Assembly (NCBI RefSeq): GCF_000428945.1
Contig: NZ_AUAX01000003.1
Location: 248,001-312,000 of the forward strand
From: Hamadaea tsunoensis DSM 44101
GTDB lineage: Bacteria; Actinomycetota; Actinomycetes; Mycobacteriales; Micromonosporaceae
Direction: 5' to 3'
Length of the DNA: 64,000 bases
How positions within the stretch are numbered: the stretch's first letter is position 1; the number at the start of each line of letters is the position of its first letter. Below, piece by piece: positions 8,961-57,380 of this stretch. The position numbers were made by a program, and so were the translations under genes. The notes under the pieces are model-generated. The model was not told the DNA's origin, made no database searches, and worked only from the letters and a program-made list of their open reading frames with translations.

Positions 8961-9004
8961 GCTACGCGAAGATCCCGCCCGCTCCCGCTACGCGAAGATC
9001 CCGC
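8961..9004. repeat. 18-bp direct repeat with 26-bp period
   Basis: GCTACGCGAAGATCCCGC occurs at 8961-8978 and again at 8987-9004. The second copy runs into the left arm of the palindromic element. Together with the pyrimidine-rich CCCGCTCCCG runs it forms a short degenerate tandem array. Confidence 0.75.
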
Positions 9005-9071
9005 TTGGATCAGGGAAATCACCCGAATCTTGGCCCAAGATTCGGGTGACAACCGTGATCCAAGCGGGATC
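8997..9071. repeat. long palindromic intergenic element, copy A
   Basis: The outer stem is 16 bp (8997-9012 with 9056-9071, perfect). A 6x6-nt internal loop follows, then an inner stem of 15 bp (9019-9033 with 9035-9049, perfect) and a 1-nt centre. The inner arm reads tcacccgaatcttgg, and the same arm recurs at three other places in the window. This copy lies between two convergent genes (methyltransferase and GEVED protein). It may act as a bidirectional terminator, a REP-like element, or both. Confidence 0.9.
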
Positions 9072-9132
9072 TTGGATGCGGCGGCCCGGGCCGCGGCGAG
9101 CGAGCCGGGGTGGGCGGCCGGGGTGGGCGGTG

Positions 9133-10725
9133 TCAGGCGGTGGCGGTGGGGCGGGGCGACGGACGGCGGCGCGGAGACGGGCGGCGGCGGGTGGCGACCG
9201 TGACCGCCGCGCCGACGACCATCAGGCCGAGCCCGGCCTCGATGATGGGCAGCAGGCGCTGGCCCGTGTTCGGCAGGCCCAGCAGGATCTTGTGGTCCTC
9301 GATCTCGCCGCCGTGGATGAACGCCGCCCCGTCCGGCTTCGGGTCCGCGACCGTACCCGGGTAGAGCCGCAGGCGCAGGAAGGTGCTGGTGACACCGCCC
9401 GCCTCCAGGGCCTTCCAGTGCAGGTGCGCGGTGGTGTCAGTGGCCGAGACGGCGACCGTGGCGCGCTCGCCGGTGTCGAAGGTGCCGCTGCCGTTGAAGT
9501 CGACCCAGCCGGCGAGCGTCGCCGCCGCACCCGTGGTGTTGGTGATCGGGACGTCCAGGCCCGGGTCCGCGGTGGAGATCGTGGTACCCGGCGCCACCCC
9601 GTCCTCGTCGTTGACGGGCAGGTTCTTGTCGTCGCCGTCCGCGTTCGGGGTCGGGATGCCGTCCAGGTCGGCGTCGATCAGCTTGCCGATGCGCAGTTCC
9701 TGGCCGGGGTGGTCGACCTCGGTGAAGATGTGGCCGGGACCGTCGTGCGGGTTCAGCGTGTGGTAGCTGTCCGGGGCGTCGCCGAAGTCCGTCGCGACCA
9801 GGCAGTCCGCGCCGTCGTTGATGAGCAGCGCCGGGCCCGGCGTGTACTTCAGCACGGTCGGGTTGGCGTAGGGCGCGTAGATCGCGAAGGTCTCGCTGTA
9901 CGCTCCCGGCTCGCCGTGCGCCAGCTTGCTGTCGACGTCGTTGGCCGACACGTACACGGTGCCGCTGACGTCCTCGACGTAGACCGCGCCGTAGTTCTGC
10001 GACTCGGGCAGCTGCGCGCTGAGATCCTTCACGTCGGTGACCTGGCCGGTCGCCGGGTCGATCGAGACCAGTTCCCGCTTGGTGGTGCCGACCTCCTCCA
10101 GGGCGTACAGCTTGCCGTCGGTCGGATTGAAGTCCCAGTCGCCGATGCGCAGGAAGTTCATGCCCGGCGTCGCCCGGCTCAGCGGAACCATGCTGAGGAT
10201 GTCGCCGACGCTGCCGTCGCTCGGGTCGACGTCGATCGAGATCAGCTCGTTGATCGGGCCGACCAGGCCGGGCTTGTCGGCCGCCGGGTCGCGGGTCAGG
10301 ATCAGCAGGTGGTCCTGATCGTCGACGGTGCCGACGTTCGTCCGGACCACCTGCCCCACCGGTACGCCGTTCAGCGGCCCGAAGTCCGTCGTGTTCCCCT
10401 CGGAGTCCCAGCGTACGAGGGTGTTGTTGTCGGGGTTGGTACGCATTCCCCAGAACACCCGCTGATCGCGGGAGTAGCCGCCGGCGTTGACCGAGCTGCC
10501 GAGGCTCTTGATGGGGACGAACTTCGAGGTGTTGAGGTCGAAGTATCCGTAGGTCGACGTCTTGCCGTCCTCGGATTGCACCTGATAGCCGAGGTTCGGG
10601 CATTCCGCGAACGGGGCTATCGGTGGGGCTATCTCGGCGAAGGCGGCGGCGGCCGGCAGAGCACCGACCGCCGCCGAGCCGACGAGGGTGAGACCGACGA
10701 GGCGACCAATTCGGATAAAGCGCAC
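9133..10725 (-). CDS. secreted GEVED-domain surface protein with LPNTG tail
   Basis: 530 aa, GTG start. A signal peptide (about 1-30) is followed by a beta-propeller-like region (about 35-330) with repeated GDWDFNPTDGKLYALE-type blades. Next comes DCLVATDFGDAPDSY, calcium-like Asp repeats (DADLDGIPTPNADGDD) and a GEVED domain (WVDFNGSGTFDTGERA ... GGEIEDH). The C-terminus is LPNTG (484-488), a hydrophobic helix and an RRRPSPRRR tail, the layout of a sortase-anchored protein. The family pattern resembles DUF6923 proteins, named from memory. It lies 6 bp after its paralogue and is probably co-transcribed with it. Role in cell-wall surface or adhesion is inferred. Confidence 0.85.
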   Translation of the reverse strand: MRFIRIGRLVGLTLVGSAAVGALPAAAAFAEIAPPIAPFAECPNLGYQVQSEDGKTSTYGYFDLNTSKFVPIKSLGSSVNAGGYSRDQRVFWGMRTNPDNNTLVRWDSEGNTTDFGPLNGVPVGQVVRTNVGTVDDQDHLLILTRDPAADKPGLVGPINELISIDVDPSDGSVGDILSMVPLSRATPGMNFLRIGDWDFNPTDGKLYALEEVGTTKRELVSIDPATGQVTDVKDLSAQLPESQNYGAVYVEDVSGTVYVSANDVDSKLAHGEPGAYSETFAIYAPYANPTVLKYTPGPALLINDGADCLVATDFGDAPDSYHTLNPHDGPGHIFTEVDHPGQELRIGKLIDADLDGIPTPNADGDDKNLPVNDEDGVAPGTTISTADPGLDVPITNTTGAAATLAGWVDFNGSGTFDTGERATVAVSATDTTAHLHWKALEAGGVTSTFLRLRLYPGTVADPKPDGAAFIHGGEIEDHKILLGLPNTGQRLLPIIEAGLGLMVVGAAVTVATRRRPSPRRRPSPRPTATA

Positions 10726-10731
10726 GAAACC

Positions 10732-15546: not shown

Positions 15547-18500
15547 TCATTCGGCGAACCTGTGCTTCGCCCGCTCGACGTAGATCACCATCGCGTCGTA
15601 GTCGTGCTGGGCGTTGGCCAGGCGCTGCCGGTCCCAGTCCAGGCTGCTGGCCGCCATCTCCACCTCGAAGGCCGCGTGCTGCGTACCGTCGTAGTTCGCG
15701 TACGCCTGCTGGAGCGCCTGGGTGTCCTGGTCGATCCGGGCCTGCACCTCCCCGATGTGGTCCTGGGCGGACTGGGCGAGCTTCTCGAAGGACTTCACGA
15801 CCTCGTCGTTGGGGTCGGCCACCGGGGCGGCCGCCGCGGCCGGCTTGGTCGCCGCCGCCTGGACGGTCGACTGGCAGCTCGCCGGGTCGCTCTGGCACTG
15901 CGCCGTCAGCTGCGAGATGTCCTGCCCGGCCGCGGCCGCGTCGAGCAGCGTCGGTAGCGGAACCCCCGCGGCCAGCGCCAGCAGCCCGGCCACGATCGCC
16001 GCCGCGTCCCAGGTGCCGAAGGCCGCCGGGATGTCCCCGCCCGCCGCGGGCGCCGGTGACGCCTGGGTCTGCGCCTGCGTGGCCGCGTCGGGCGCCGGGG
16101 TGTTGGGCGCCGGCTTGTCGCCGGACGAGGTCCCGGTGCTGTCCGCCTTGGCCGCCTGCGCCTTGAGCTCCTCCAGCTTCAGCCGCTCGTCGGTGAGCAC
16201 GTGCTGGGCGTACTCCTTCTCGGCGTGCTGCAGCAGGGTCTTCTCGTGGTCGGCCAGCCCGTGGGCGCCTCCCTCCTCGTACGCCTCACCGGCCTCGGCG
16301 AACTCGTTGAAGGAGTCCTGCACGTAGCTGTTCCACCACAGGCAGGCCGCGTCGCATTCGGTGAACCCGGACGGGTCGGTGAAGCTCAGCGGGCTGTTGT
16401 GGACGTACGCGTACGGGTCGGCCGCCGGCAGGTGCAGCGGATCGGCGGACAGGAACGCGTGCTGCGCCGGGTCGTACACGCGGCCGCCCAGGTCGATCAG
16501 GCGGAGGTCGTCGGCGTGGTCGTCACCGGCGAAGCCGCGCCGGACATCGCCACCGGCGGTCGCCAGCGGAGTGCCGTCGGCCTGCGTACGCGCGCCGAAG
16601 GGCTCGTAGTACAGCCGCTCGGCCACGGCACCCGCCCCGTCGAGGGTCGCCGTCACCGAACCGAGGGCGTCGTGGACGGCGTACTCGGTCGTGGTGGTGC
16701 TGCCCGCGTAGACGACCTGGCCGACCGGGCCGTCGGTGCCCTGGACGAAGAACACGTCCGTCGTGCTCCCGCCGGTGACCCGGTGCTCGTACAGGCCGGG
16801 AATGGTGAAGGTGCTCGCGGTCGGCGAGGTCTGCTTCACCCGGGCCCCGAAGGCGTCGTACGCGAACGTCGTCGTCACGCCGCCGACGGTCACCGATTTC
16901 GGCAGGTCCCGAGCGGTGAACGTGGTGGTACGCCCGTCGCCCTGGGTCTGGCGGCCCTCGCCGTCGTAGTACGACTTGGCCGAGGTGCCGCCGGCCGTCG
17001 TGATGGTGGTCAGCGTGTGCGGCTGGCCGCCGTTGAAGTTGCCGTACGTCCGCGTCTCGGTGACCGTCCCGTTCTTCGTGATCGAGGTGAGGTCGCCGAC
17101 CGGGTCGTAGGCGTACCCCGTGGTGTCGTTGTTCAGCTGCCAAGACGTGAGCTGTCCGGCGGCGTCGTAGCCGAACGACTCGGTCCGCCCGGTGACGCTG
17201 TCGGTCCGGCCGGTGACGAGGCCGTCGGCCTGGTACGCGTACGTCAGGTCCTGCACGGGTCCGCCCGGTCCGCCGACCGAGATCTCGTGCAGCCGCCCGG
17301 ACGGCGAGTCGTACGCCATCGTCAGGTTGGCCGCTCCCAGCGTGGCCGACTGGAGCGCGGAGTTCGGCGTACGCGAGAGGACTGTCCACAGTGAACGCGG
17401 CTGCCCGGTGGTGACGTCGGAGACCGAGCTGGTCGCGCCGAACTGGGTGTAGCCGTAGCCGACGGTGAACCGCGACCGCCCGGGAACCGCGGGGTACGCG
17501 GTGCTCGCGAGCCGGTTGTTGGCCCCGTACGCCTGATCGACGTGGTACGCGGCGCCGGTGGTGGTGTCGGTGTAGTCGGTGCCGACCGCGCGGCCGTTCG
17601 TGTCGTAGCGGTACCCGGTGAGGATCCCGTCGGCGCTCATCGCGGCGGCGAGCTTGCCGACGCCGTGCGCGGCGGTGTCGTAGGTGAACGTCGCCGTCCC
17701 GTCGGCATCGGTACGCGACACGGACCGGCCGAGGTCGTCGTAGCCGAAGGCGATGGTCGAGCCGGTCGCCACGGCGGTCTGCTGCCGCAGGTCACCCGTG
17801 CCGTAGTAGGTGTCGGTGGTCCGGCCGGTGTCCGGGTCGTCGACCTGGACCTGCCGTCCCTCGACGTCGTAGGCGTGCGCGGTCTGGTGCCCCTGCGCGT
17901 CGATCGCCGTCCACAGCAGGCCGAAGGGGCCGTACTGGTAGGTGGTCGTCGCCCCGCCGATGGTGCTCGCGGTGAGCCGGCCGTTCACGTCGAAGGTCGT
18001 GTCGGTCTGCGCACCCGCGGGTGAGAGGGCCTTCTCGGTGAACATCGTGTAGGTGTTCTTGGCGATCGAGCCGTCCGGCTGCGATTGCGCGACGAGCCGG
18101 TCGAGGCTGTCGTACCCGAACGCCGTCGTGCCGCCCGGCGCGGGCACCGTCCGGCTCGCGAGCCGGCCCAGCGCGTCGTACCTGCTGGTGGTCGTGGCGG
18201 TCTGGCCGTTGAAGGCCGTCTGTCCACTCGCGATGGTGCGGCCCAGCGCGTCCGCCGTCGAGCTGACGATCCGCGGCATCAGCGGCGCCGCGCCGATCTG
18301 ACCGCTCGTCACGGTCCCGTTCGTGCCGCCGGCCGTGTCGGGCCGGTCGGCGTACGTGACGGTCGTGGGATCCTGGCCGTCGGCCGTCGTGTGCACGGTC
18401 CGGCCCAGCGCGTCGAACGTCGCCGTCGCCTGCACGCCGTTCACGTCCTCGCTCGCCACCACCACGCCGTACGCGGGGTACACGACCTGCCAGGAAGCCG

Positions 18501-21500
18501 GCCGGTACGCGGGATCGGCATGCTCGGCCCAGCTCTGGTACGCGTCCATCCACTCGTTCGGCTGGCCCGCGAACGGCGCCGCGTACACGAAGTGGGTGAC
18601 CCGGTCGGGCAGGCCGGCGGCCGTGGTCAGCACCGAGTCGACCGTGCCGAAGTCGTTGAGCACGAACGAGGTCGCCTTCGTGACGTCCGGGTTAGCGTTC
18701 CCCTTCTCCACCCACGCCGCCGTCAGCCGGCCGAGCGCGTCGAACTCCCGATCGGTGGTACGCGTGACCGCGGCCGGCTGGTTCGCGGCGACGGCCGACG
18801 TCGTGGCCTGGTGGGTGGCGAGCGAGACCAGCCAGTCCCCCACGCGGTTGTCGTAGTCGGTGTGCACGGTCGTCGTGTCGCCGGCCGCCACCGCGGTGAC
18901 GCTGTCGGTCAGGTTCCCGAAGTCGTCGTAGGTGAACGTCCGGTCCGTACGCTTCGGCGCGTGGGCCGGTTCGACGATGCCGCTCACGTGCTCCGTGGCG
19001 GTCGCCGGGCCGAGCGGGCCCCACGTCATGGTGGCGTTCTGCTCCCATTCGAGCTCGGCGCTCGTCTTCGGGAACACCGCGTACGTGGTCGAGCCGTTGA
19101 GGTGGCGCAGCTCGTAGGTGCTGCTCGTTCGGGTGATCCGGGCGTTGACCGTGGCGGGCTTGCGGCCCGGCCAGCTGCCGGCCAGGATCGGCACGGCCGT
19201 CGTCACGCTGAGCGGGCGCTCCACGGACGGGTAGTACTGACCGTCCACACGCGACTTGTGCAGCTGGAAGTTGTAGGTCGTCTCGGCCGGCCGCTGCGGA
19301 TCCCAGACCCGCATGGTGCCGAACCCGAGGAACCCGCGGCCCCGCGAGTCGAACGCCGGGTCCTCGTACGCGTACTGCAGCGTGTAGCCGTCCGCCGTGT
19401 TCGCGGGGTCCAGCAGGTGCCGGCGGTCGACGACCTGGCGTACGACCGTCTGCCCACCGCGTACGCAGCGCACGGGATAGGTGCACGTGTAGTTGGCGAG
19501 CTTCTCGGGGTGGTCGGACCAGGAGTTGCTGTAGGTGACCGTCTCGGCCGCCCAGTTCGTGTCCTCGTCGGTCACCTTGACGAGCGTGTCCGGGTAGGAC
19601 GGATTCTGCGTCAGCAGCAGCTGGTGCCCGCCGCTCACCCGCACCACGTCGGTACGCCCGTCGCCGGTGAAGTCCCCGGCCAGCGAGAGCGACCGGCCGG
19701 CGTTCGGGTCGACCGTGCCGCCGTCGGCCGCCAGGTTCGCCCCGCCGAAGGTGCCGTCCCCGTTGGAGATCAGCACGGTCGTGGCGTTGTTCGTGAAGAC
19801 GACCAGATCCGCGCGGCCGTCGCCGTTGAGGTCCGCGGGGCGCAGGTCGGCGTACTCGTCGTGGAAGATGTTCGGCGTGTGGGAGTCCACGACCAGGCCC
19901 GCGCCGGTGTTCCAGAGCAGGGCGGCCGAGCGGTCCCAGGTGTTCGTGTTCGGGTCGAGGTGGTTGGGCACCAGCAGGTAGTCGTCCAGCCCGTCACTGT
20001 TGAAGTCCGCGTTGACGACCCGGTAGTGACTGATCTGCGGGAGCGCCTTCGCGTACACGACACTGCCGATCTTGTCCGACTCCGGGTGCCCGACGGGCAG
20101 CCCGCCCGAGTCCAGGTGCAGGACCCACGGGTCATAGCTGCAACCCACCGCGGAATAGGACTGGCCCACCACGTCCGCCCGGCCGTCGCCGTCGGCGTCC
20201 GTCACCCGTGGCGCCGGGCAGGTCCCGTTGCCGTTCGCCGGGCCGTCCGCGTAGTTCGAGGGCATCGGAGCGTCGAAACCGTTGCCGTTGTTGAGGCGTA
20301 CCGAGTAGTACTTCAGGCCGCCGGCCACGACGTCGTCGGTGATGTAGTCGGCCAGGCCGTCGCCGTTGAGGTCGGCGAAGACCGTGTTGGCCGAGGCGCT
20401 GATCGCGATCCCGGTGTCCACGAACTTCTGCGAGGCGTCCCAGTCGAACAGCTTCGCCTGGTCCGTGGGGAACTGCGCGGCCATGCTGATCGCGCCGGTG
20501 CCCCGGCGGTCCATCGCGCGGCTCGTCATCAGGTTGACGTTGGCCGGCCAGCCCACGGAGGCGGCGGTCACCGAGGTCTCGTCGGCGAGTGGGGTCACCG
20601 CGCCCGTGGCCGCATCGGTCTTGCCGCGCCGGGCCAGGATCGGGCTGTTCGCGTCCGTGGTCCCACCGGGTGTCCACAGCAGATCGTCGGTGCCGTCGCC
20701 GTCGAGGTCCAGCACCTGGCCCAGCGGCGGGCGGGTCTGCCCGGTCTGGAACCCCGGGAGTACGCCGAGATCCGTCTGCGTGAACGACGGCACCTGCGCG
20801 GCCGGCTGCTGCCACGTGAACTGCTTGGCCCGCAGGCAGCCGCCGAGCTGGCCGCACTTGGCGACCGAGGTCAGGAGGCTGCGACCCGACGGGCTGGTCG
20901 TGTACTGGAGGGTGTAGTACCAGACGGCCGAGGTGACGGCCGGGTTCGGCGCCGACATCGTGACCGTCTTCAGCCGCTTCGTCGAGGCGTAGCGCACGCC
21001 GTTCGCGTACCGGAACGAACTGTCCGGCCGCGCCTCGTACGCGAAGTCCACCGCGCGTACGCCGGCCAGCGGGGTGCCGCCGACGTGCTCGGTGTAGACG
21101 ATCTTCTTCGGCAGGATCTCCAGTCCGTAGTTCCCGGCCGTGACGTCCCACTGGTACGACAGCTGGTTGCCGGAGCGGTCGCGGTCGGTGGCGAGCAGCC
21201 AGGCGACGCGTACGGCGGCGGTCTGCTGGTCGCCCGTGGTGGGGCCGGGATCCCAGCCGACACCCGAGGTCACCCGGGTCGCCGTCTGCGGCAGGTAGGT
21301 GCGGATGCGGCCGTCCTTCGTGCGTACCTCGAAGGAATCGGGGCCGGACGCGGCCGTGGCCGCCGTGGCGGTGGCCGTGATCCGGGCGAACGAGTCCTGC
21401 TCGGTGCGGTACTCGGCGAAGGTCTGCGGCGGGTCGCCCGGGATCGGGCCGAGCTGGGCCAGTTCCTGGCCGTCGAGGCAGAAGCGGTCGGTCGAGTCGT

Positions 21501-21924
21501 ACTTGACCCCGGCTACGACGCCGTCCGTGGACAACCTGTGTCCACAGCGGACGATCTGCGATCCGGCGCCGCTCAGCGACCAGCCGACACCGGCGGTGCC
21601 GTTGCCGCTCCCGCTGTCGTAGTTCAGGCTCAGCGCCGGCTGCACACCCGCGCGGCCCGCCGGAACGTCCAGCGGGATCGTGTACACGAACGAGCCGCTG
21701 GGGGTCACGTCCCAGGAGCCCGGCAGGTAACCGACATGGCCGACGGCGGCCTGGATCGGCGTACCCGGGACGGTCATCGCCTCCGGCAGCGCGGGCGCGC
21801 CGTTCGGCAGGGGTGAGGCGAGGGCCGGCCCGGCGAGGCCGGCGGTGGTCGTGGACAGCGCCAGGCTCAGCGCGAGGAGGTGAATCAGCGAGCGCTTCCG
21901 GTACGCCCGCGGCGTGGTACGCAT
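15547..21924 (-). CDS. giant secreted SpvB/VCBS/RHS (YD-repeat) protein
   Basis: 2125 aa. A Sec signal peptide (about 1-37) precedes an SpvB/TcaB-like N-terminal region (SGSFVYTIPLDVPAGRAGVQ, LNYDSGSGNG). FG-GAP/VCBS calcium repeats follow (about 390-800; DLDGDGTDDLLW, DLNGDGLADYIT, DADGDGRADVV, DFNSDGLDDYLL). A long series of YD repeats (about 1000-1780) with YDxxGR units ends in the RHS core signature (DDLRLIDLGGRVYDP, SADPLHLPAADPYAYVHNSPLSFTDPSG, to about 1850). The variable tail of about 275 aa has an EFAEAGEAYEEGG helix, a Pro/Ala linker, a hydrophobic segment (VAGLLALAAGVPL) and a terminal coiled coil. No nuclease, deaminase or other toxin motif was recognised, and no candidate immunity gene lies downstream (the next gene is convergent). 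Confidence 0.93.
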   Translation of the reverse strand: MRTTPRAYRKRSLIHLLALSLALSTTTAGLAGPALASPLPNGAPALPEAMTVPGTPIQAAVGHVGYLPGSWDVTPSGSFVYTIPLDVPAGRAGVQPALSLNYDSGSGNGTAGVGWSLSGAGSQIVRCGHRLSTDGVVAGVKYDSTDRFCLDGQELAQLGPIPGDPPQTFAEYRTEQDSFARITATATAATAASGPDSFEVRTKDGRIRTYLPQTATRVTSGVGWDPGPTTGDQQTAAVRVAWLLATDRDRSGNQLSYQWDVTAGNYGLEILPKKIVYTEHVGGTPLAGVRAVDFAYEARPDSSFRYANGVRYASTKRLKTVTMSAPNPAVTSAVWYYTLQYTTSPSGRSLLTSVAKCGQLGGCLRAKQFTWQQPAAQVPSFTQTDLGVLPGFQTGQTRPPLGQVLDLDGDGTDDLLWTPGGTTDANSPILARRGKTDAATGAVTPLADETSVTAASVGWPANVNLMTSRAMDRRGTGAISMAAQFPTDQAKLFDWDASQKFVDTGIAISASANTVFADLNGDGLADYITDDVVAGGLKYYSVRLNNGNGFDAPMPSNYADGPANGNGTCPAPRVTDADGDGRADVVGQSYSAVGCSYDPWVLHLDSGGLPVGHPESDKIGSVVYAKALPQISHYRVVNADFNSDGLDDYLLVPNHLDPNTNTWDRSAALLWNTGAGLVVDSHTPNIFHDEYADLRPADLNGDGRADLVVFTNNATTVLISNGDGTFGGANLAADGGTVDPNAGRSLSLAGDFTGDGRTDVVRVSGGHQLLLTQNPSYPDTLVKVTDEDTNWAAETVTYSNSWSDHPEKLANYTCTYPVRCVRGGQTVVRQVVDRRHLLDPANTADGYTLQYAYEDPAFDSRGRGFLGFGTMRVWDPQRPAETTYNFQLHKSRVDGQYYPSVERPLSVTTAVPILAGSWPGRKPATVNARITRTSSTYELRHLNGSTTYAVFPKTSAELEWEQNATMTWGPLGPATATEHVSGIVEPAHAPKRTDRTFTYDDFGNLTDSVTAVAAGDTTTVHTDYDNRVGDWLVSLATHQATTSAVAANQPAAVTRTTDREFDALGRLTAAWVEKGNANPDVTKATSFVLNDFGTVDSVLTTAAGLPDRVTHFVYAAPFAGQPNEWMDAYQSWAEHADPAYRPASWQVVYPAYGVVVASEDVNGVQATATFDALGRTVHTTADGQDPTTVTYADRPDTAGGTNGTVTSGQIGAAPLMPRIVSSTADALGRTIASGQTAFNGQTATTTSRYDALGRLASRTVPAPGGTTAFGYDSLDRLVAQSQPDGSIAKNTYTMFTEKALSPAGAQTDTTFDVNGRLTASTIGGATTTYQYGPFGLLWTAIDAQGHQTAHAYDVEGRQVQVDDPDTGRTTDTYYGTGDLRQQTAVATGSTIAFGYDDLGRSVSRTDADGTATFTYDTAAHGVGKLAAAMSADGILTGYRYDTNGRAVGTDYTDTTTGAAYHVDQAYGANNRLASTAYPAVPGRSRFTVGYGYTQFGATSSVSDVTTGQPRSLWTVLSRTPNSALQSATLGAANLTMAYDSPSGRLHEISVGGPGGPVQDLTYAYQADGLVTGRTDSVTGRTESFGYDAAGQLTSWQLNNDTTGYAYDPVGDLTSITKNGTVTETRTYGNFNGGQPHTLTTITTAGGTSAKSYYDGEGRQTQGDGRTTTFTARDLPKSVTVGGVTTTFAYDAFGARVKQTSPTASTFTIPGLYEHRVTGGSTTDVFFVQGTDGPVGQVVYAGSTTTTEYAVHDALGSVTATLDGAGAVAERLYYEPFGARTQADGTPLATAGGDVRRGFAGDDHADDLRLIDLGGRVYDPAQHAFLSADPLHLPAADPYAYVHNSPLSFTDPSGFTECDAACLWWNSYVQDSFNEFAEAGEAYEEGGAHGLADHEKTLLQHAEKEYAQHVLTDERLKLEELKAQAAKADSTGTSSGDKPAPNTPAPDAATQAQTQASPAPAAGGDIPAAFGTWDAAAIVAGLLALAAGVPLPTLLDAAAAGQDISQLTAQCQSDPASCQSTVQAAATKPAAAAAPVADPNDEVVKSFEKLAQSAQDHIGEVQARIDQDTQALQQAYANYDGTQHAAFEVEMAASSLDWDRQRLANAQHDYDAMVIYVERAKHRFAE

Positions 21925-21967: not shown

Positions 21968-22069
21968 GAACGGTGTCATCCGTCGATACCCCGGGGCCTG
22001 AGCAAGCGCTACTCAAACTCCCGCCCGCCCATTGCTCACCCGCCTCACGATCCCGCTGAGCTCGCCCTC

Positions 22070-22148
22070 ATGATCCCGTTTGGATCAGGGAAATCACCCG
22101 AATCTTGGGCCATGATTCGGGTGAAAAACCTGATCCAAACGGGATCAT
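22070..22148. repeat. long palindromic intergenic element, copy B
   Basis: The outer stem is 20 bp and perfect (22070-22089 with 22129-22148). The inner stem tcacccgaatcttgg/ccatgattcgggtga has one mismatch. Relative to copy A the outer stem changes CGCTTGG to CGTTTGG on one side and CCAAGCG to CCAAACG on the other, a compensated pair. It lies 28 bp after the nuoN stop and about 145 bp upstream of the RHS start, so it could end the nuo transcript. The remainder of 21968-22069 shows no gene. Confidence 0.9.
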
Positions 22149-22176
22149 GGAGCAGGCGCGGCGCGAGGAGGGCGGC

Positions 22177-23583
22177 TCAGGGGCGGGCGAGGGAGAAGAT
22201 CACCTGGGGGGCGAAGCCGGCCACGACCGCCGCGAGCGTCAGCACACCCAGCACGACCGAGCCGAGCACCGCGCGCGGCGCCGCCGCCGTCCCGCTCCGG
22301 TACAACGGCAGGAGCGCCCGCAGGTACACCGCGAGCCCGACCACGGCCGCGACCGCCACGACCGCCACCATCGCCCACGCCCGCGCATCCACCAGCGCAC
22401 GCAGGACGAACACCTTCGCGAACAGGCCCGCCAGCGCGGGCGGCAGCCCGGCCAGACCCACCACGGCGAACGCCAGCGCCGCCGAACGCAGCGGCGCCGA
22501 GCGGCCGATGCCCGCGTACTCGGCGAGGTCGCCGCCGTCGGCCCCGGCCGGCCGCAGGCTGATCACTCCGGCGAAGGCCCCGAGCTCCACGATCAGATAG
22601 ATCACCGTGTACGCGACCGTCGCCGTCACCAGGTCCGCCGGTGCGGCGTGGCCGAGGGCGGCCAGCGGGGCGAGCAGGAATCCGGCCTGCGCGATCGAGG
22701 ACCAGGCCAGCAGCCGGACCATCCGCCGCTGCCGCAGCGCGACCAGGCTTCCGGCCAGCAAGGTCAGCCCGGCCAGTACGCCGAGCGCCGGACCGGTCAC
22801 GTGGTACCAGGCCGGCCCCGCGCCCACGACGACGTACAGCAGCGCGAAGATGCCGCCGAGCTTCGAAGCCGTCGACAGGTACGCGGCCACCGGCAGCGGC
22901 GCACCGTCGTAGGTGGACGGTGCCCAGGCGTGGGCCGGCACGACCGCGACCTTGAACGCCAGACCGGCGATCAGCAGCACCAGGCCGGCCCCGGCGAGCG
23001 GCCGCGCCGGACCGGAGACGTCGAGGGCCGTCGTGAGGGCGCTGAGGCGTACCTCGCCGGTGGCGGCGTAGACGAGGGCGGCGCCGAGCAGGGTCACGGC
23101 GGTCGCGATCACGCTGGTCAGCAGGAACGTCACCGACGCCTGGGCCGACTCGACGGACTTGCGCCGCAGCCCGACCAGCACGTAGAGCGGCAGGGTCAGC
23201 GTCTCCAGCGCCACGATCAGGGCGATCAGGTCACGGGCGCCGCCGAGCGCCACGCCGCCGGTCATGGAGGCGGTGAGCAGGAACGCGTACTCCCCGGCCG
23301 GGATCTCGCCGAGGCGCAGGGTGGGCACGGAGAGCAGCAGGACCACGGCGGTGATCACGGCCATGGCCACGGCGACCAGGGTCGCGGGCCGGTCGAAGAC
23401 CCAGGAGCAGGCGGTGTCGTCGCAGAACGCTTTGCCGCGCCGGGTCAACGCGGCCCCGACGGCGGTCGCGGCCGCGCCGAGGACCCCCGCGCCGACGGTG
23501 ACCGCCACTCGGGCGAACACCAGGTCGCAGAGGAAGACCAGGACGGCCGTACCCGCGGCCAGGTAGACCGGCAGCAGGCTCAC
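22177..23583 (-). CDS. nuoN: NADH-quinone oxidoreductase subunit N
   Basis: 468 aa antiporter-like membrane subunit of complex I with about 14 hydrophobic helices. Recognisable motifs are LIALIVALETLTLPLYVLVGLRR (with the conserved TM5 glutamate), LAFKVAVVPAHAWAPSTYDGAPLPVAAYLSTASKLGG (Lys and His/Trp of the proton channel) and LLAWSSIAQAGFLLAP. The GTG at 23583 is chosen because earlier in-frame GTGs would overlap nuoM; it gives VSLLPVYL as the N-terminus. It is the last gene of nuoI-J-K-L-M-N, starting 11 bp after nuoM, and is followed by palindrome copy B. Confidence 0.95.
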   Translation of the reverse strand: MSLLPVYLAAGTAVLVFLCDLVFARVAVTVGAGVLGAAATAVGAALTRRGKAFCDDTACSWVFDRPATLVAVAMAVITAVVLLLSVPTLRLGEIPAGEYAFLLTASMTGGVALGGARDLIALIVALETLTLPLYVLVGLRRKSVESAQASVTFLLTSVIATAVTLLGAALVYAATGEVRLSALTTALDVSGPARPLAGAGLVLLIAGLAFKVAVVPAHAWAPSTYDGAPLPVAAYLSTASKLGGIFALLYVVVGAGPAWYHVTGPALGVLAGLTLLAGSLVALRQRRMVRLLAWSSIAQAGFLLAPLAALGHAAPADLVTATVAYTVIYLIVELGAFAGVISLRPAGADGGDLAEYAGIGRSAPLRSAALAFAVVGLAGLPPALAGLFAKVFVLRALVDARAWAMVAVVAVAAVVGLAVYLRALLPLYRSGTAAAPRAVLGSVVLGVLTLAAVVAGFAPQVIFSLARP

Positions 23584-28332: not shown

Positions 28333-30840
28333 GTGCGTCGTCTCGCCGGGATCATCGTTCTTCTGCTGACCGCCTCGCTGCTCGGAGCACCCAGTCCGGC
28401 ACAGGCGGTCACCTCGAACACATCATCATCGAGTACGCCCAACAGCCTCACCACACCGCCCGGTCAGGAGCGCACGTTCTCCGGGACCGTACGCGACACC
28501 GCCGGCCAGCCCATCGAGGGCGCCTGCGTGGACGTGCAGGGCTCGCTGACGGCGTACTTCGCGCACGCCTGCACCGACGCGGCCGGTCACTACGAGATCG
28601 GCGACGTTTCGACCGTCCCGGCCTCCTACCGGCTGCACGCCTCGGCGGTCGGCCACGCCGCCCGGTGGTGGCCGAACGGGGCGCAGATCAGCGGCGCCCA
28701 GGTCGTCGCCCTCCCGGTCGCGGGTCAGGCTCGGACGGTGGATTTCGTGCTGCCGTCCACCGCGGAGGCCAGCGGGAAGATCACCGGAACGGTCCGCCGG
28801 CAGGACGGTACGCCCGCGTCCGGGGCCATCGTGCGGGCCTTCCTGGACACCACGGTGCCGGCTGTCCAGATCGCGTACACCGTGACGGACGGTTCGTACA
28901 CTCTGGACGGTCTGGTCGCCGGGCAGTACCGGATCCAGGTCAGCGGGGCCGGCTACCCGGTCCAGTACGTTCCCGGGCAGCCCGACCTGGCCTCGGCCGC
29001 ACCGCAGACCGTGACAACGGCCGCGGCGACCACGGTGAACGAGACCTTCCTCGCCCTGGCGACCATTCCGCCGGCGACGATGGGCAGCCTCAGCGGCACG
29101 GTCCACGATCCGGCCGGTACGCCGGTCGCGGGAGCCACCGTCGCGCTGTGGGGATCGCTGGCCTACGAGTCCGCGGCCCTCATGCAGACGGTGACCGACC
29201 AGAACGGCCACTACGCCCTCACGGGTCTGGCCCAGGCCAGCCAGACTTACTACGTGCGGACCAGCGCCCCCGGCTACGCGACCGCCTGGAGTGCCGGCAA
29301 CGTCACGCCCGTCACCAACAGCCTGCCTCCGGTCGACACGATCCGGGACGTCACCGTGCGGCCCGGCGTCGGCGCGATCACAGGTACGCTGCGTGACTTC
29401 GACGGCGGAGTGCCGCCGCGTACCTCGCTGGTCTTCACCTCGCTGGACGGTTCCCTGACCTTCAACACGGTCAGCTGGTTCAACGGCCACTTCGAGCTGC
29501 CCAACGTGCCCGCCGGTCAGTACCGGCTCACGCTCGAGCCCTACACGCGGCCGTACCAGTACTGGCCGGGCGGGCGTACGCCCCAGGAGTACGGCACCTT
29601 CACGGTGGCCGACCACACCTCGACCGATCTGCGCGAGACGCTGCTCAGCCCGGCCCGTATCGAGGCCACGGTGCTGGATGACGTGACCGGCCAGCCGATC
29701 ACCACCGCGTGCGTCCTCACCGGCACGAGTGGCTGGACCGCCTGCGCTCCCGCCATCGCCCCCGGCGTGTACGCCCACGACGACTTCACGCAAGCGCTGA
29801 ACTTCCCCAGCGTGTCGGCCACCGACGGGCCGTACCACTTCATCGCCTCCAGCGGGCCGGCGGCGGCGACGATCGGGCAGACCGCCAAGGTCACCATCCG
29901 GATGAAGCCGGGCGCGCAGCTCGCGTTCGACTACACCGTTCCGTCAGGCGCACAAGGCCCGACACAGATCTGCTACAGCGCGACGACCTCGGCCCCGTTC
30001 CAGTACGACAACGGCGACCGCAGCGCGGCCTGCCCGACCGTCTCCGGCGGGCACGCGCTGCTCGGCCCGATCCGGCCGGGCAGCCACGTCAACGTCTTCC
30101 TGCAGGCGCCGACCGGAGCCAGCGACCTCGGCGCGCAGTGGGTGACCGGCTCCGGCGGCGGCGGCGATCAGCGCGAAGCCACCGACTTCACGTTCGTCGC
30201 CGGGCAGACGACGAACGGGCCGAGCCAGCACCTGCTCTACAGCGGCTCGATCCAGGGCACGGTCACCGGCCCCGGTGCGACGTCGCAGGTCTGCCCCGGT
30301 CCGGTCTACACCGGCTACCTCAACTGCGGCGCCGGGGCGTACACGCAGCCGAAGCTGGGGCCGTACCGCTGGCCGGTGTCCCTCGCGCTGTACGGCGGAG
30401 GCCAGGTGGCCGGCTGGTCGGGGGCCGGCACCAACCGCTTCAACGCCGGATACGTCCAGGTCACGAGCGGTGGTTCCGCCCAGGCCGACATCCGGCTGCG
30501 GTCGCTGTCGCCGATCGGGGTGACCGTCGCGGGCGTACCCACGAACACGTGGACCCTCGTCGCGTTCGACCCGGTGACAGGTGACCGGGTTTCGGACATC
30601 GGCACCAACCGGGGGACGTACGACAGTATCTGGGTGCCCGGCCAGGTCGTCCTCAAGCTGAGCGCGCCCGCGATGGCCCAGCCGTGCTACGTCAGCATTC
30701 CGCAGCCCGCGCTGCCCGGCCGGCGCTCCCAGCCGAGCTACGTGATCAACCCGGTGGCGCAGCTGACGATCACACCCGGCGTCAACTGCCGGTCGGATAT
30801 CACGCCGAGCCTGCAGCCAGGATCGGCCACCCGCCGCTGA
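28333..30840 (+). CDS. secreted carboxypeptidase-regulatory-like repeat protein, paralogue 1
   Basis: About 835 aa from the GTG at 28333 (GGGGAGGA 5 nt upstream), which gives the compact signal peptide MRRLAGIIVLLLTASLLGAP...AQA. A GTG at 28300 in the same frame is an alternative. At least four carboxypeptidase-regulatory-like/CNA-B-like beta domains follow (FSGTVRDTAGQPIEGACVDVQG, ITGTVRRQDGTPASGA, LSGTVHDPAGTPVAGA, ITGTLRDFDGG), each with GHYxIGD/GxYxLxGL motifs. A C-terminal half with GALYGG-type strands and a shared end PGRRSQPSYVI...PSLQPG follows. There is no membrane anchor or sortase motif, so it is presumably released. Function unknown. It is first of three tandem paralogues and has its own terminator. 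Confidence 0.85.
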   Translation: MRRLAGIIVLLLTASLLGAPSPAQAVTSNTSSSSTPNSLTTPPGQERTFSGTVRDTAGQPIEGACVDVQGSLTAYFAHACTDAAGHYEIGDVSTVPASYRLHASAVGHAARWWPNGAQISGAQVVALPVAGQARTVDFVLPSTAEASGKITGTVRRQDGTPASGAIVRAFLDTTVPAVQIAYTVTDGSYTLDGLVAGQYRIQVSGAGYPVQYVPGQPDLASAAPQTVTTAAATTVNETFLALATIPPATMGSLSGTVHDPAGTPVAGATVALWGSLAYESAALMQTVTDQNGHYALTGLAQASQTYYVRTSAPGYATAWSAGNVTPVTNSLPPVDTIRDVTVRPGVGAITGTLRDFDGGVPPRTSLVFTSLDGSLTFNTVSWFNGHFELPNVPAGQYRLTLEPYTRPYQYWPGGRTPQEYGTFTVADHTSTDLRETLLSPARIEATVLDDVTGQPITTACVLTGTSGWTACAPAIAPGVYAHDDFTQALNFPSVSATDGPYHFIASSGPAAATIGQTAKVTIRMKPGAQLAFDYTVPSGAQGPTQICYSATTSAPFQYDNGDRSAACPTVSGGHALLGPIRPGSHVNVFLQAPTGASDLGAQWVTGSGGGGDQREATDFTFVAGQTTNGPSQHLLYSGSIQGTVTGPGATSQVCPGPVYTGYLNCGAGAYTQPKLGPYRWPVSLALYGGGQVAGWSGAGTNRFNAGYVQVTSGGSAQADIRLRSLSPIGVTVAGVPTNTWTLVAFDPVTGDRVSDIGTNRGTYDSIWVPGQVVLKLSAPAMAQPCYVSIPQPALPGRRSQPSYVINPVAQLTITPGVNCRSDITPSLQPGSATRR

Positions 30841-30851
30841 CCGGAGGCATC

Positions 30852-30885: not shown

Positions 30886-30921
30886 ACTGTTGATCAGCCC
30901 CGAAAGGAAGACCCCGCCGTA

Positions 30922-36026: not shown

Positions 36027-36039
36027 GGCTCGGTCGCAG

Positions 36040-36071
36040 GAGGACGGTTCGCCACCTGGCGGGCCGTCCTC
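36040..36071. terminator. hairpin terminator after paralogue 3 / facing nuoH
   Basis: An 8-bp perfect stem GAGGACGG/CCGTCCTC (36040-36047 with 36064-36071) with a 16-nt loop containing GCCACC. It resembles the terminator after paralogue 1. It lies between convergent genes (nuoH ends at 36091). Confidence 0.7.
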
Positions 36072-36090
36072 TTGCCGTTGAGGAACAAGG

Positions 36091-39631: not shown

Positions 39632-41131
39632 ATGGGCACAGAGCGTACGGGAGTGAGAAAGAGTCGCGTATCGGCCGGGGTGGCCGCCGGACATCCGGCG
39701 ACCGTCGAGGCCGGTCTGCGCGTCCTGGTGGAGGGCGGCAACGCCGTCGACGCCGCCGTCGCCGCCACCTTCGCTTCGTGCGCCACCGAGACCATCCTGT
39801 GCGGCCTGGGCGGCGGCGGATTCGCCACCGTCTTCTCCGCCGACTCCGGCAGCGTCGCCGTCCTCGACTTCTTCTGCGCCGTACCGGGCCTCGACGGCGG
39901 CGTCGCCGGACCGATGGTCCCCGTCGAGGTCTACTTCGGCGAGGTGCCGATCGACTACGAGATCGGTGGCGCGTCGGTCGCCGTGCCGGGCGTACCGGCG
40001 GGCTGCGCGGAACTGCACCGCCGCTTCGGCTCGCTGCCGTGGGCCGAGATCGTGCGGCCGGCGTACGAACTCGCCCGGTCGGGGGCACCGATCCCGGTAC
40101 CGCAGGCCGAGGCGCTGCACTCGATCCGGGCCGCCATGACCATCGGCGACGGCGCCCGGGCGTACGCGCCGACGGGCCGGCTCCTCGAAGGCGGCGACCT
40201 GCTCCTGCACCCTGGGCTGGCGGACGCGTTCGCCCTGCTCGGGACCGGCATCGACGAGTGGGACGGGCACACCCGACCGCTCATCGCCGACGGCGTACGC
40301 GCGGCCGGCGGGGCGCTCGGCCGGCGCGATCTGGCGGACTACCGCGTCATCTCCCGCCCCGTACGCTCGGCCACGCTCGCCGGGCGGCACGTCTGCGGCC
40401 GGCTGGACCTGAACCGGACCCTGCCCACCTTCGCGGCGCTCCCCGAGATCTCGGCCCTGTCCCGGCCGGAACGCGCGGTCGCGCTCGCGAAGACGCTCCG
40501 GGACAACGGCCACCGGCCGGCGTCCGCCACCGAGGCCGTCTTCGACGTCGAGCCCGAGGGGCACGATTTCGACCCGCCGCCCCGGGAGCCGCTGCGACGC
40601 GGCGAGACGACCAACATCTCGGTCGTCGACCGGCACGGCAACGCCTGCGTCGTCACGCACACCCTCGGGCTCGGCTCCGGGGTCTGGCTGCCGGGGCTCG
40701 GCGTACACCTGAATTCGATGTTGGGTGAAGGTGAGCTGGTGGCCGGCGATCTGGCCGCGGGCGACCGGGTGCACTCGATGATGTCGCCGCTGGTGGTGCT
40801 GGCGCCCGGCGGGCAGCTGGAGCTGGCGATCGGCGCGGCCGGCGCGTCGCGGATCCGGTCGGCGCTGCTCAGCACCCTCGTGCCCTACCTGGTCGACGGT
40901 CGCTCGGTCCCGGCCGCCGTCGGTACGCCGCGCCTGCACGTCGCCGAGAACACCGCGCACCTGGAGCCGAACTATCCGGCGGCGGACGAGGAGGCGCTGG
41001 TCGGCGCGGGATTCGAGATCGAGCGGTGGGAGAAGACGCACCACTTCTTCGGCGCGGTCAGCGCGGTGGGGCGCGGCGGGGTGGCGGGTGACCCCCGCCG
41101 CGGCGGCGCCGCCCGCGCCTACCCGGCCTGA
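39632..41131 (+). CDS. gamma-glutamyltransferase family protein
   Basis: 499 aa Ntn-hydrolase. GHPATVEAGLRVLVEGGNAVDAAVAATF and GLGGGGFATVF match the large-subunit start. RRGETTNISVVDRHGNACVVTHTLG contains the autoprocessing site, with the second Thr expected as the new N-terminal nucleophile. GLGSGVWLPGLGVHLNSML and the C-terminal GAAGASRIRSALL follow. No signal peptide is visible, so this may be a cytoplasmic member. The ATG at 39632 is used; a GTG at 39653 with a GGGA upstream is possible and would leave more room for promoters. Substrate (glutathione is not expected in a mycothiol producer) is unknown. Palindrome copy C follows. Confidence 0.87.
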   Translation: MGTERTGVRKSRVSAGVAAGHPATVEAGLRVLVEGGNAVDAAVAATFASCATETILCGLGGGGFATVFSADSGSVAVLDFFCAVPGLDGGVAGPMVPVEVYFGEVPIDYEIGGASVAVPGVPAGCAELHRRFGSLPWAEIVRPAYELARSGAPIPVPQAEALHSIRAAMTIGDGARAYAPTGRLLEGGDLLLHPGLADAFALLGTGIDEWDGHTRPLIADGVRAAGGALGRRDLADYRVISRPVRSATLAGRHVCGRLDLNRTLPTFAALPEISALSRPERAVALAKTLRDNGHRPASATEAVFDVEPEGHDFDPPPREPLRRGETTNISVVDRHGNACVVTHTLGLGSGVWLPGLGVHLNSMLGEGELVAGDLAAGDRVHSMMSPLVVLAPGGQLELAIGAAGASRIRSALLSTLVPYLVDGRSVPAAVGTPRLHVAENTAHLEPNYPAADEEALVGAGFEIERWEKTHHFFGAVSAVGRGGVAGDPRRGGAARAYPA

Positions 41132-41255: not shown

Positions 41256-42500
41256 TCAGCGGATGTGGCCGGCGCCCGTGACGACGTACTTCGTGGAGGT
41301 CAGCTCGGGCAGGCCCATCGGGCCGCGCGCGTGCAGCTTCTGGGTCGAGATGCCGATCTCCGCGCCGAAGCCGAACTCCCCGCCGTCGACGAACCGGGTC
41401 GACGCGTTGACCAGGACCGCCGCCGCGTCCACCCGAGCCGTGAACTCCTGCGCGGCCGCCAGCGATCCGGTGATGATCGCCTCGCTGTGCCCCGTCCCGT
41501 ACGCCGCGATGTGCTCGATCGCCGCGTCCACGGACGACACGACGGCCGCCGAGAGATCCAGCGACAGGTACTCCGTCGCGAAGTCCTCGGCTGTCGCCGC
41601 GACGACCTCGCCGAACGCCGCCACCTCGGGCGTACCGTGCACGGTCACGCCGGCCTCGGCCAGCGCGACCAGCGCCGACGGCAGGAACGCGGCGGCCGCG
41701 TCGGCGTGCACCAGCAGCGACTCGGCCGCGTTGCAGACCGAGGGCCGCGACGTCTTGGCGTTCAGCAGGATGCTCAGCGCCATGTCCAGGTCGGCGGACG
41801 CGTCGACGTAGATGTGGCAGTTGCCCACGCCGGTCTCGATCACCGGCACCGTCGACCCCTCGACCACGCTGCGGATCAGGCCCGCGCCGCCGCGCGGGAT
41901 CAGCACGTCGACCAGGCCGCGGGCCCGCATGAGCTCGCCCACGCTCTCCCGCGAGGACGCGTCGACCAGCTGGATCGCGTCGGCCGGCAGCCCGGTCTTC
42001 GCGACCGCCTCGCGCAGCACGGCCACGATCGCCGCGTTCGAGTGCGCCGCGCTCGACGAACCCCGCAGCAGCACCGCGTTGCCCGACTTCAGGGTCAGCC
42101 CGGCCGCGTCCGCCGTCACGTTCGGCCGTGCCTCATAGATGATGCCGACCACGCCGAACGGCACGCGTACCTGGCGCAGCTGCAGGCCGTTGGGCAGCGT
42201 CGAGCCGCGCACGACCTCGCCCACCGGGTCCGCGAGCGCGACCATCTGCCGCAGCCCGTCGGCGATCCCGGCCAGCCGCGCCGGCGTCAGCGTCAACCGG
42301 TCCACGATCGACTCGCTGGTCCCCGCCTCCCGCGCCGCCGCGACGTCCCGCTCGTTCGCCTCCAGAATTTCCGGCGTACGCGCAGCCAGCGATTCGGCCA
42401 TCGTCAGCAGGGCCTCGTCCTTGACGGCCCGCGGCGCGGTCGCGAGGATCCGGGCGGCCGCCCGGGCGAGTTGGGCCTGCTGCGCGACTGTCTGCGTCAT
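41256..42500 (-). CDS. proA: gamma-glutamyl phosphate reductase
   Basis: 414 aa NADPH-dependent enzyme that converts gamma-glutamyl phosphate to glutamate semialdehyde in proline synthesis. Motifs are [39 protein letters not shown], the catalytic cysteine in [16 protein letters not shown], and the C-terminal [34 protein letters not shown]. It begins 7 bp after proB, in one operon. Palindrome copy C is 20 bp past the stop. Confidence 0.98.
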
Positions 42501-44863: not shown

Positions 44864-44895
44864 AAAGGCCCCGCCTCGAAGGAGGCGGGGCCTTT
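44864..44895. terminator. strong bidirectional hairpin terminator
   Basis: A perfect 14-bp stem AAAGGCCCCGCCTC/GAGGCGGGGCCTTT (44864-44877 with 44882-44895) with a GAAG loop. The A and T ends give both strands a short U-tract. It lies between the convergent barrel-protein gene and moeZ. Confidence 0.95.
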
Positions 44896-56139: not shown

Positions 56140-56175
56140 CGAACGGCGCGACCCCACCCGGGGACGCGCCGTTCG
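56140..56175 (+). terminator. hairpin terminator after the helicase gene
   Basis: A perfect 11-bp stem CGAACGGCGCG/CGCGCCGTTCG (56140-56150 with 56165-56175) with a 14-nt loop, 11 nt after the stop. Confidence 0.85.
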
Positions 56176-56234
56176 ACCATTCCCGGCCGCGTCAACCGCC
56201 CGGGATCGGCGTCCCGTCGTGGGAAGCTGGGCGG

Positions 56235-57263
56235 ATGGAGACCGTGCACACCGTCCTCGTCGCCCTCGCCGAGCGGTACGCCTTCGCCGACCTCGCCGCG
56301 CTGGTCGGCGACGGGGCGGGCGGCACCGGCCTGTCCGTTCATGATGTGGCGCGCATCCAGCAGCTGTGCGCCTTCGGTCAGCGGCTGCTGGATCTGGACG
56401 CCGAGGACTTCGGGGTCGCCGATGCCGCCGCCGGGGCGAACGTCGAGCACCGGATAGCCGACAGTGTGAGCGGTGATCGCGTACCGGAGGAATTGAGGCA
56501 GCGCGCGTTGGAGTGCCGGATGCCCCAGTCCGCCCGGGAACAGGATCGCGGGGCGCTGGCCTCGCTGGTTCCGGCGTACTCGTTGTTGCTGGAGGTCATC
56601 CAGGTGCGGTGGCTGCGCCGGGAGACCAGTGCGCTCGTCGCCGCCGTCCACATCATCAGCGAGTACGCGCCCCTGCTCGTCTGGGAGCGGGTGCTGGGCC
56701 ACGCCGGTGATCCCCTGCGGCTGCCGGAGCAGGTGAACGGCGAGCACAGCCTGTGGGGCGACTTCGAGGGCCGCGAGTGTCCACATACGAAGGCCGAGAA
56801 GTCCGCGGCCCAGCGGGTGCTGCGGGTGGCGCACGAGCCGCCGAGTGGCTGGCGGGCGTACCTGGACCGGCAGCATTCCAACACTTCGCACGCGTTGGGC
56901 GTCTGCGCGGGTGCGTGTCCGCGCCCGTGCTCGGTGCTGACCCGGTGGACCGCGGACGACCGTGAGCTGCTCGGGGTCGGCAGCCGGCTCGCGGCCACGT
57001 TGAACGACTCGTCCCTGGTGAAGCTCCGGCATGCGGCCCCGGTCGGCCACGGCTTCGGGGTGCCTTCGCGCTCGGAGATCATTCAGGCGTGGGAGCGGGG
57101 AAGGGCGAGCCTGGCCCGCCACGCCCCCGCGGTCGCCGAGGAGGACGGCTTTCCGCTGCCGGGCTTCGCCGCCCTGGTCAGCGCCTTCGCCGGCCGGCCT
57201 GTGAAGCCCGCGACCCTGCTCGCGGACACCGCCGAAGCCATCACCCGCGAACTCCTCAAATAG
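56235..57263 (+). CDS. conserved hypothetical helical protein
   Basis: 342 aa from the ATG at 56235. It is mostly alpha-helical (METVHTVLVALAERYAFADLAALV; SLVPAYSLLLEVIQVRWLRRETSALVAAVHIISEYAPLLVWERVLGHAGDP), with a cysteine cluster in the middle (GVCAGACPRPCSVL, about 232-245) that could bind a metal. There is no signal peptide or membrane helix. I do not recognise the family. Location next to the RhlE block suggests an actinobacterial conserved gene. It ends 40 bp before palindrome copy D. Confidence 0.75.
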   Translation: METVHTVLVALAERYAFADLAALVGDGAGGTGLSVHDVARIQQLCAFGQRLLDLDAEDFGVADAAAGANVEHRIADSVSGDRVPEELRQRALECRMPQSAREQDRGALASLVPAYSLLLEVIQVRWLRRETSALVAAVHIISEYAPLLVWERVLGHAGDPLRLPEQVNGEHSLWGDFEGRECPHTKAEKSAAQRVLRVAHEPPSGWRAYLDRQHSNTSHALGVCAGACPRPCSVLTRWTADDRELLGVGSRLAATLNDSSLVKLRHAAPVGHGFGVPSRSEIIQAWERGRASLARHAPAVAEEDGFPLPGFAALVSAFAGRPVKPATLLADTAEAITRELLK

Positions 57264-57300
57264 CCCCCCACGCTCCGCCCCCACCCCCGAGCCCAGCCCC

Positions 57301-57380
57301 AAGATCCCGCTTGGATCAGGGAAATCACCCGAATCTTGGGCCATGATTCGGGTGATTTCCCTGATCCAAACCAGATCAAG
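57301..57380. repeat. long palindromic intergenic element, copy D
   Basis: This is the most complete copy: a perfect 25-bp inverted repeat (57311-57335 with 57345-57369) and a 9-nt centre. Here the internal loop of the other copies is also paired (GGGAAA with TTTCCC). Outer flanks AAGATCCCGC and CCAGATCAAG are imperfect. It lies between convergent genes and runs into a tandem array. Confidence 0.92.

Follow-up and report, generated by a model that had tools for sequence, protein, structure and literature searches.

A palindromic 81-bp repeat family at gene 3' ends in Hamadaea tsunoensis DSM 44101

Introduction

ERIC, Correia/NEMIS, RUP and BOX are lineage-specific hairpin repeats of about 100 bp that are found near or in transcripts. 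An 81-bp palindromic element, four copies of which lie in a stretch of 64,000 nucleotides from the soil bacterium Hamadaea tsunoensis DSM 44101 (contig NZ_AUAX01000003.1, positions 248,001 to 312,000 of the forward strand; this whole stretch is called the window), resembles these families by description; no target duplication was detected here. The genome of the window (G000) was compared with three others of the same genus (G001, G002 and G003; Hamadaea, Micromonosporaceae), the four being 99.5, 100, 97 and 87% complete.

Repetitive extragenic palindromic (REP) sequences and bacterial interspersed mosaic elements (BIMEs) are high in copy number, palindromic and intergenic, and lie mostly in convergent or unidirectional gaps downstream of coding regions (PMC3733652). 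The 81-bp family is also a high-copy, palindromic one that occupies convergent and tandem gaps at gene ends. It differs from REP sequences in its length (81 bp as opposed to 20–40 bp), in the lack of a GTAG or CGTC tag at its ends, which are mostly CNNG..CNNG with no conserved flank tag, and in the lack of a match to the Y1 transposase (REP-associated tyrosine transposase, RAYT) in the four Hamadaea genomes. Miniature inverted-repeat transposable elements (MITEs) derived from insertion sequences (IS) differ in that no target site duplication was detected here. Inverted repeats are the targets of IS1272, which replaces them and leaves no target duplication (PMC5678879); it shares with the family both the inverted-repeat setting and the missing duplication. 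However, IS1272 is an IS with its own transposase, whereas only two sub-cut-off fragments of the IS1182 family were found here, both in G003.

Inverted repeats near gene ends in E. coli are mostly parts of intrinsic terminators (PMC6060812), from which the family differs in that a U-tract follows the stem at one of 86 gene ends. In Streptomyces clavuligerus, transcript ends termed HS-U-lack have stable U-less stems and were likened to I-shaped terminators (PMC8269248). The likeness lies in a stable stem downstream of a gene with fewer than three U after it; the difference is that one repeat family here gives hundreds of such hairpins, as putative transcript ends. Short abundant transcripts at palindromes in the 3' untranslated regions of Streptomyces coelicolor and E. 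coli were interpreted as decay intermediates (PMC4681348), which bears on any reading in which a hairpin blocks exonucleases. RepRanger tabulates palindromes in three Actinomycetota (Arthrobacter, Acidipropionibacterium and Acidimicrobium); its text has no occurrence of Streptomyces, Micromonospor or RAYT (PMC12306157). Searches of the open-licence literature turned up no earlier account of this family or of any palindromic repeats in Hamadaea.

Copies of the element and their position relative to genes

A single 81-bp palindromic element is present four times in the window. Its limits were set by a covariance model (R1) of 56 copies, the four window copies among them, and all four match the model on both strands:

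8994-9074, no strand assigned: copy 1, 81 bp, R1 score 93.5 bits, between the convergent predicted genes 8153-8920 (+) and 9133-10581 (-)
22069-22149, no strand assigned: copy 2, 81 bp, R1 score 99.9 bits, in a tandem gap, 27 bp past the nuoN stop codon
41157-41237, no strand assigned: copy 3, 81 bp, R1 score 79.7 bits, between a gamma-glutamyltranspeptidase-like gene, 39680-41131 (+), and proA, 41256-42500 (-)
57300-57380, no strand assigned: copy 4, 81 bp, R1 score 85.6 bits (- strand) and 82.5 bits (+ strand), between gene 56235-57263 (+) and a copper-type P-type ATPase gene, 57501-59639 (-)

An earlier, sequence-only reading of the window had recognized the elements at these four places, three between convergent genes (copies 1, 3 and 4) and one after the nuo operon (copy 2), and had described them as an outer stem, an internal loop and an inner stem. 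Both the placement and the shape proved real, the middle of copy 4 being a nearly perfect palindrome that folds as a nearly continuous stem because both inner arms bear the same allele. The folding energies of copies 1 to 4 (91-nt stretches) were -65.4, -62.3, -49.0 and -51.9 kcal/mol with z of -11.1, -10.4, -6.7 and -8.6 respectively, and none of 200 dinucleotide shuffles of each was as stable. The next-best R1 match in the window, at 44864-44895, was marginal (E 0.013). Seven convergent gaps in the window are at least 40 bp long; three hold the element, three an ordinary strong hairpin and one (36027-36090) neither.

The 15-nt core, with at most one mismatch, occurs at 322 places in the 9.48-Mb genome, copies with the core in both arms being counted twice. 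An nhmmer search from the four copies over 1,250,833 sampled bases (1.25 of 9.48 Mb, from three contigs, window included) gave 60 merged matches at E up to 1e-4. These comprise 57 full-length copies, two of them low-scoring and retained by hand (C1:16019 and C4:180708), and three partial ones, two of which are halves of one interrupted copy. The genome total extrapolated from this sample is about 430 copies. A genome-wide family had been proposed by the sequence-only reading together with a covariance-model search, which was run on up to 150 scored candidates in each of the four Hamadaea genomes and gave further matches.

Two copies in G000 are split at the centre by about 0.5 kb of other palindromes (C1:202045-202690, L039, and C1:264376-264466, L042), the other half of L042 being missing. 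The splitting palindromes are of the TTGATCAAATACCG type and others, and their outer ends resemble inverted repeats; the 81-bp element may be a target for insertion of a larger palindromic element that is itself non-coding.

With genes called by a home-made caller rather than taken from a published annotation, 31 of the 57 copies lie in convergent and 24 in tandem gaps, none in a divergent gap, and two are unclassified (one of them close to the edge of the sample, the other overlapping a predicted gene). Divergent gaps make up 36% of intergenic bases, yet hold none of the 55 classified copies (p = 5e-11); convergent gaps make up 21% and hold 31 (p 8e-9). Of the 24 copies in tandem gaps, 19 are closer to the 3' end of the upstream gene (p 0.007), and both orientations are equally frequent (12 and 12, by hidden Markov model strands). 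Both flanks are 30 bp or less in 15 of the 31 convergent gaps, so that a second large hairpin would hardly fit there. In convergent gaps the median distance of the stem from the nearer stop codon was 18 bp for the family (31 cases) and 11 bp for ordinary strong hairpins (27 cases; p 0.08); the corresponding medians for tandem gaps were 38 bp (24 cases) and 14.5 bp (40 cases; p 0.16). The additional copies and their strong 3' bias agree with the sequence-only reading, as does the distinctness of the family from unique-sequence hairpins, by which the elements had been held not to be explained by ordinary hairpins.

Layout of the element and paired changes

Alignment A1 contains 56 of the 57 full copies, the omitted one spanning two sequence pieces. 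Over its 81 columns a single gap occurs, in one of the copies, and mean column identity is 90%; the median pairwise identity of the copies is 0.86. The order is CAAGATCCCGTTT, GGATCAGGG, AAATCACCC, GAATCTTGG and one centre base, followed by the mirror, in which the variable segment of the right arm is usually different. The parts of the left arm are, in copy 2:

22082-22090, + strand: GGATCAGGG box, A1 columns 14-22, partner columns 60-68
22091-22099, + strand: 9-nt variable segment, AAATCACCC, A1 columns 23-31, partner columns 51-59, species-dependent
22100-22108, + strand: GAATCTTGG core, A1 columns 32-40

The copies share common descent and form a hairpin with paired changes. In the window genome 91.9% of paired-column cells pair, and 36 cells were changed on both sides as opposed to 18.9 ± 3.1 after shuffling (reached by none of 500 shuffles), a count that relatedness among copies can inflate. 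These changes are spread over eight of 29 pairs, against 5.3 in shuffles (reached by nine of 500). The 9-nt segments of 132 congener copies pair in 84% of cells, with 68 two-sided changes as opposed to 52.1 ± 4.7 (none of 200). When 55 own and 132 congener copies were pooled, two-sided changes exceeded the shuffled numbers both in the outer flank (205 vs 84) and in the variable segment (174 vs 111; none of 200 in either case), an excess that mainly reflects the difference between the two clades.

The alleles of the variable segment in the left and right arm, a fuzzy assignment, were A/B in 32, A/B2 in 15, B2/A in one and A/A in eight of the 57 own copies, with one unassigned; B/B did not occur in the sample. 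Correction of one arm by the other through template switching was rejected for the window genome, where identical 9-nt segments were present in just one of 55 distinct copies. In congeners both arms have identical 9-nt segments in 41 of 132 copies, so that such correction may have occurred there.

Related repeats in the genus and in a second genus

The exact 81-bp sequence is specific to the species of the window: its left arm, with at most one mismatch, occurs at 262 places in G000 and at one place each in two of 353 other genomes of the bacterial family. The layout is common to the four Hamadaea genomes (GGATCAGGG box, 9-nt variable segment, GAATCTTGG core and mirror): the boxes and the outer and inner stems are conserved, and the intervening segment varies from species to species. 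The core GAATCTTGGNNNNNGATTC is found at 86 places in G000, 65 in G003, 153 in G001 and 101 in G002, and at one or two places in seven of 350 other genomes. Covariance-model matches at E up to 0.001 numbered at least 133 in each congener (over the four genomes, at least 150, at least 133, at least 148 and at least 148), and one congener pattern matched at least 120 stretches in the Hamadaea Bin8.36 and Bin2.24 records. The congener copies were found with patterns that fix the boxes, one of which fixed part of the variable segment too, so the invariance of the congener boxes is partly by construction.

A second family in the window genome, CGACGATCTTGCGCGAATG and its mirror around an asymmetric interior, has 31 sampled copies (14 convergent, 13 tandem, three divergent and one other). 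Strong stems that bear GATC were found in 83 gaps of the own sample, 49 of them with the window family and 34 with other sequences, some of the latter being GC-rich hairpins of unique sequence whose tip bears GATC. In five other genera, also sampled, such stems were present in three and other strong stems in 43 of 175 gaps. Most of the repeated palindrome families listed from the gaps of G000 and G003 have GATC in their stems. GATC itself occurs 13.9 times per kb in convergent and 7.2 times in divergent sampled gaps of G000, and 14.7 and 6.4 times in those of G003, roughly a twofold difference in both genomes; in their genes it occurs 8.1 and 8.8 times per kb respectively.

A second genus of Micromonosporaceae (g17) has a palindrome of its own, whose arm, GCAGTTTCGGGGAAA, was found in all 11 genomes searched, at 13 to 370 places. 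Of 30 loci, 27 have the full palindrome and represent 19 distinct elements by hand count: ten convergent, seven tandem, none divergent and two unclassed. In three g17 species, copies with GAATCTTGG, four free positions and GATTC are present at 55, 33 and 25 places. The GAATCTTGG copies read in this genus also come from a box-fixing pattern; in the arm-based sample GAATCTTGG is present in one of 19 distinct copies. The GAATCTTGG core common to Hamadaea and g17 may reflect either descent or coincidence.

Turnover between species

Median protein identity is 80% between the window species and G003, 78% between it and G002, and 93% between G002 and G003. Contig C3 of the sample has 15 element-bearing gaps, and at 11 of these the neighbouring genes are adjacent in G003 too. 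Read by eye, the G003 gap has a hairpin with this layout and a different sequence at three of the 11 and some other hairpin at four; at the remaining four it is 0–27 bp long.

G002 and G003 were compared at conserved gene pairs, gaps over 600 bp being excluded. A GATC hairpin was present in both at five convergent and six tandem sites, and in one only at five convergent and seven tandem sites; one divergent pair had the hairpin in both species and another in a single species. Shared sites were above chance (p 0.009 for convergent and 5e-6 for tandem pairs). Nevertheless 12 of the 23 convergent or tandem sites were discordant, which at 93% protein identity indicates that the elements turn over fast. 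Between the window genome and G003, sharing was significant for tandem (p 0.002) and not for convergent pairs (p 0.14), and between it and G002 for neither. Among the alignments listed, an element with filler occupies about 120 bp near C56:142606 of G002 where the stop codons of G003 nearly abut, and at positions 43920 and 123134 G002 and G003 have different families.

Candidate routes of spread

Mobilization by RAYT was rejected on the lack of a Y1 transposase match in the four Hamadaea genomes, and replacement of hairpins by an IS1182-type element because two sub-cut-off fragments were found in G003 and none in the other three genomes. Insertion into the middle of older hairpins was also rejected, as own flanks beyond the CNNG ends pair no better than shuffles; one of 16 positions exceeded them (-16/+16, z 2.2). 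In congeners, the pairing just beyond GGATC (z up to 3.0) is the element's own GCGCT end, and the flanks gave stray values at -14/+14 (z 3.1) and -16/+16 (z -2.8). An origin from phage was dropped after one 27-letter pattern gave no match in viral_contigs.

In G003, a piece of about 42 nt like GCCGGGGAGCGCTTGCGCGAGCCGCCAGGAGTGCAGTCAG is found within palindrome loops (C1 near 5252931 and 5148169, L085 and L080) and elsewhere alone, and no Y1 transposase was matched in that genome to account for it.

Proposed role and alternative explanations

We give slightly better than an even chance to a reading in which this palindromic repeat family is lineage-specific, non-autonomous and spreading, its copies at 3' ends being retained as U-less hairpins that end transcripts from either side. 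The repeats would spread inside Hamadaea genomes, and copies would survive almost only downstream of stop codons. There the long hairpin would serve one gene or two facing genes as a U-less 3' end of the transcript, as a terminator, a block to 3' exonucleases or both. The comparison of species points to mobility as the probable cause of turnover, and we infer that the hairpin ends or protects transcripts. The same comparison suggests that a spreading element occupies places where other gene ends have ordinary hairpins. The sequence-only reading had proposed REP/MITE-like or terminator elements. The genome-wide REP/MITE-like family and its 3' bias stood; membership in these classes was not supported, since no REP tag, Y1 transposase or target duplication was found and U-tracts were almost absent, and 'REP/MITE or terminator' is not an either/or. 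If the preferred reading is right, a single repeat family supplies hundreds of gene-end hairpins per genome, and closely related species have exchanged one set of sequences for another within the same layout. Two questions would then be open to test: by what means high-GC actinobacteria end transcripts when U-tracts are lacking, and in what way short palindromes spread in genomes with no match to a REP-type transposase.

Several results weigh against it. PF01797 (Y1/RAYT transposase) was matched in none of the four Hamadaea genomes and in five of 14 control genomes, and no mobilizer was found in the four, where only RAYT and IS1182 were sought. No target duplication stood out in 688 tests of offset and length on 57 own and 152 congener copies, the best scores being 2.4 and 2.9 respectively. 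Of the 86 gene ends that face a copy, one has a U-tract (at least three U in the eight nucleotides after the stem), so the elements do not qualify as canonical intrinsic terminators, and the family lies somewhat, not significantly, farther from stop codons than ordinary hairpins. Among own copies, 40% of the cells in the 9-nt segments pair and two-sided changes are no more frequent than expected (five vs 6.1), and the GGATCAGGG box has no excess of them in the own or congener set, because it hardly varies. Three of the 31 copies of the CGACGATCTTGCGCGAATG family are in divergent gaps, as are GATC hairpins at two of 48 such gaps in G002 and none of 43 in G003. Discordant sites faced a gap without a strong hairpin at four convergent and eight tandem sites between the window genome and G003, and at no convergent and four tandem sites between G002 and G003, which argues against a strict need for the hairpin. 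Finally, a purely tolerated element would likewise end up at 3' ends.

This last point is the core of the best-surviving alternative, a selfish repeat that inserts widely and is purged from genes and promoters, the leftover copies in 3' gaps being useless. The species-specific sequence, the equal orientations in tandem gaps, the near absence of U-tracts and the discordant presence in close species, often facing a gap without a strong hairpin, would all fit it. Yet the complete lack of classified copies in divergent gaps, over a third of intergenic bases, speaks against it, as do stop-codon distances within the range of ordinary hairpins and the 15 of 31 convergent gaps that hardly exceed the element. 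We regard it as a serious contender that is nonetheless rather unlikely.

Sites that act at the DNA level, either as cruciforms or as binding sites for a protein (nucleoid protein or gyrase) between convergent genes where supercoils meet, with the GATC boxes as recognition motif, are improbable. The occurrence of GATC in stems across several palindrome families of Hamadaea that are unrelated to one another, and a GGATCAGGG box that is nearly invariant in own copies, more so than pairing requires, would be explained in this way; however, tandem 3' ends are used as well, and a D12-class (Dam-type) methylase was unmatched in G000, G001 and G002, with two weak matches in G003. A link between GATC and Dam was rejected on the same matches.

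A dispersed family of small-RNA or riboregulator genes would account for the stable conserved fold, but is very improbable: no Rfam match at gathering score was found in the window, its four copies match the model on both strands, and 8900-9200, the sole stretch scanned, has no sigma-70-like consensus promoter. Ordinary terminators that are alike by chance or convergence would explain the placement after stop codons and little else, and are already refuted by the homology of the copies, given the nearly gapless alignment of 56 of them and a left arm at hundreds of places here and almost nowhere else in the bacterial family.

A further reading is speculative and unlikely, if less so than the DNA-level sites. 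The two-box hairpin (GGATCAGGG and GAATCTTGG at a fixed 9-nt spacing) would be the substrate of an undescribed enzyme that swaps 3'-end hairpins, and the genus would in this way renew its gene-end signals species by species. In the second Micromonosporaceae genus the palindrome family, which has different arms and in some species shares the GAATCTTGG core, would have done likewise.

Other features of the window and genome

The nuoN gene beside copy 2 (22177-23583, - strand) has TIGR01770 as its best family (258 bits, under the cut-off of 333). Copy 2 lies upstream of an RHS/SpvB-type gene on the same strand (15547-21924), the 2125-aa product of which matches SpvB, FG-GAP, TcdB middle and RHS repeat. 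Three tandem paralogous genes with repeated carboxypeptidase regulatory-like domains occupy 28528-36026. Predicted gaps of 0.8–1 kb in G000 are mosaics of nested inverted repeats with common ends:

C4, 102877-103707 in sample coordinates (+120000 = contig): mosaic gap
C1:148570-149553: mosaic gap
C1:91376-92171: mosaic gap

Directly after copy 4, positions 57380-57500 of the window carry imperfect tandem repeats with a unit like GGATCAAGCGCAGCCCCACCC.

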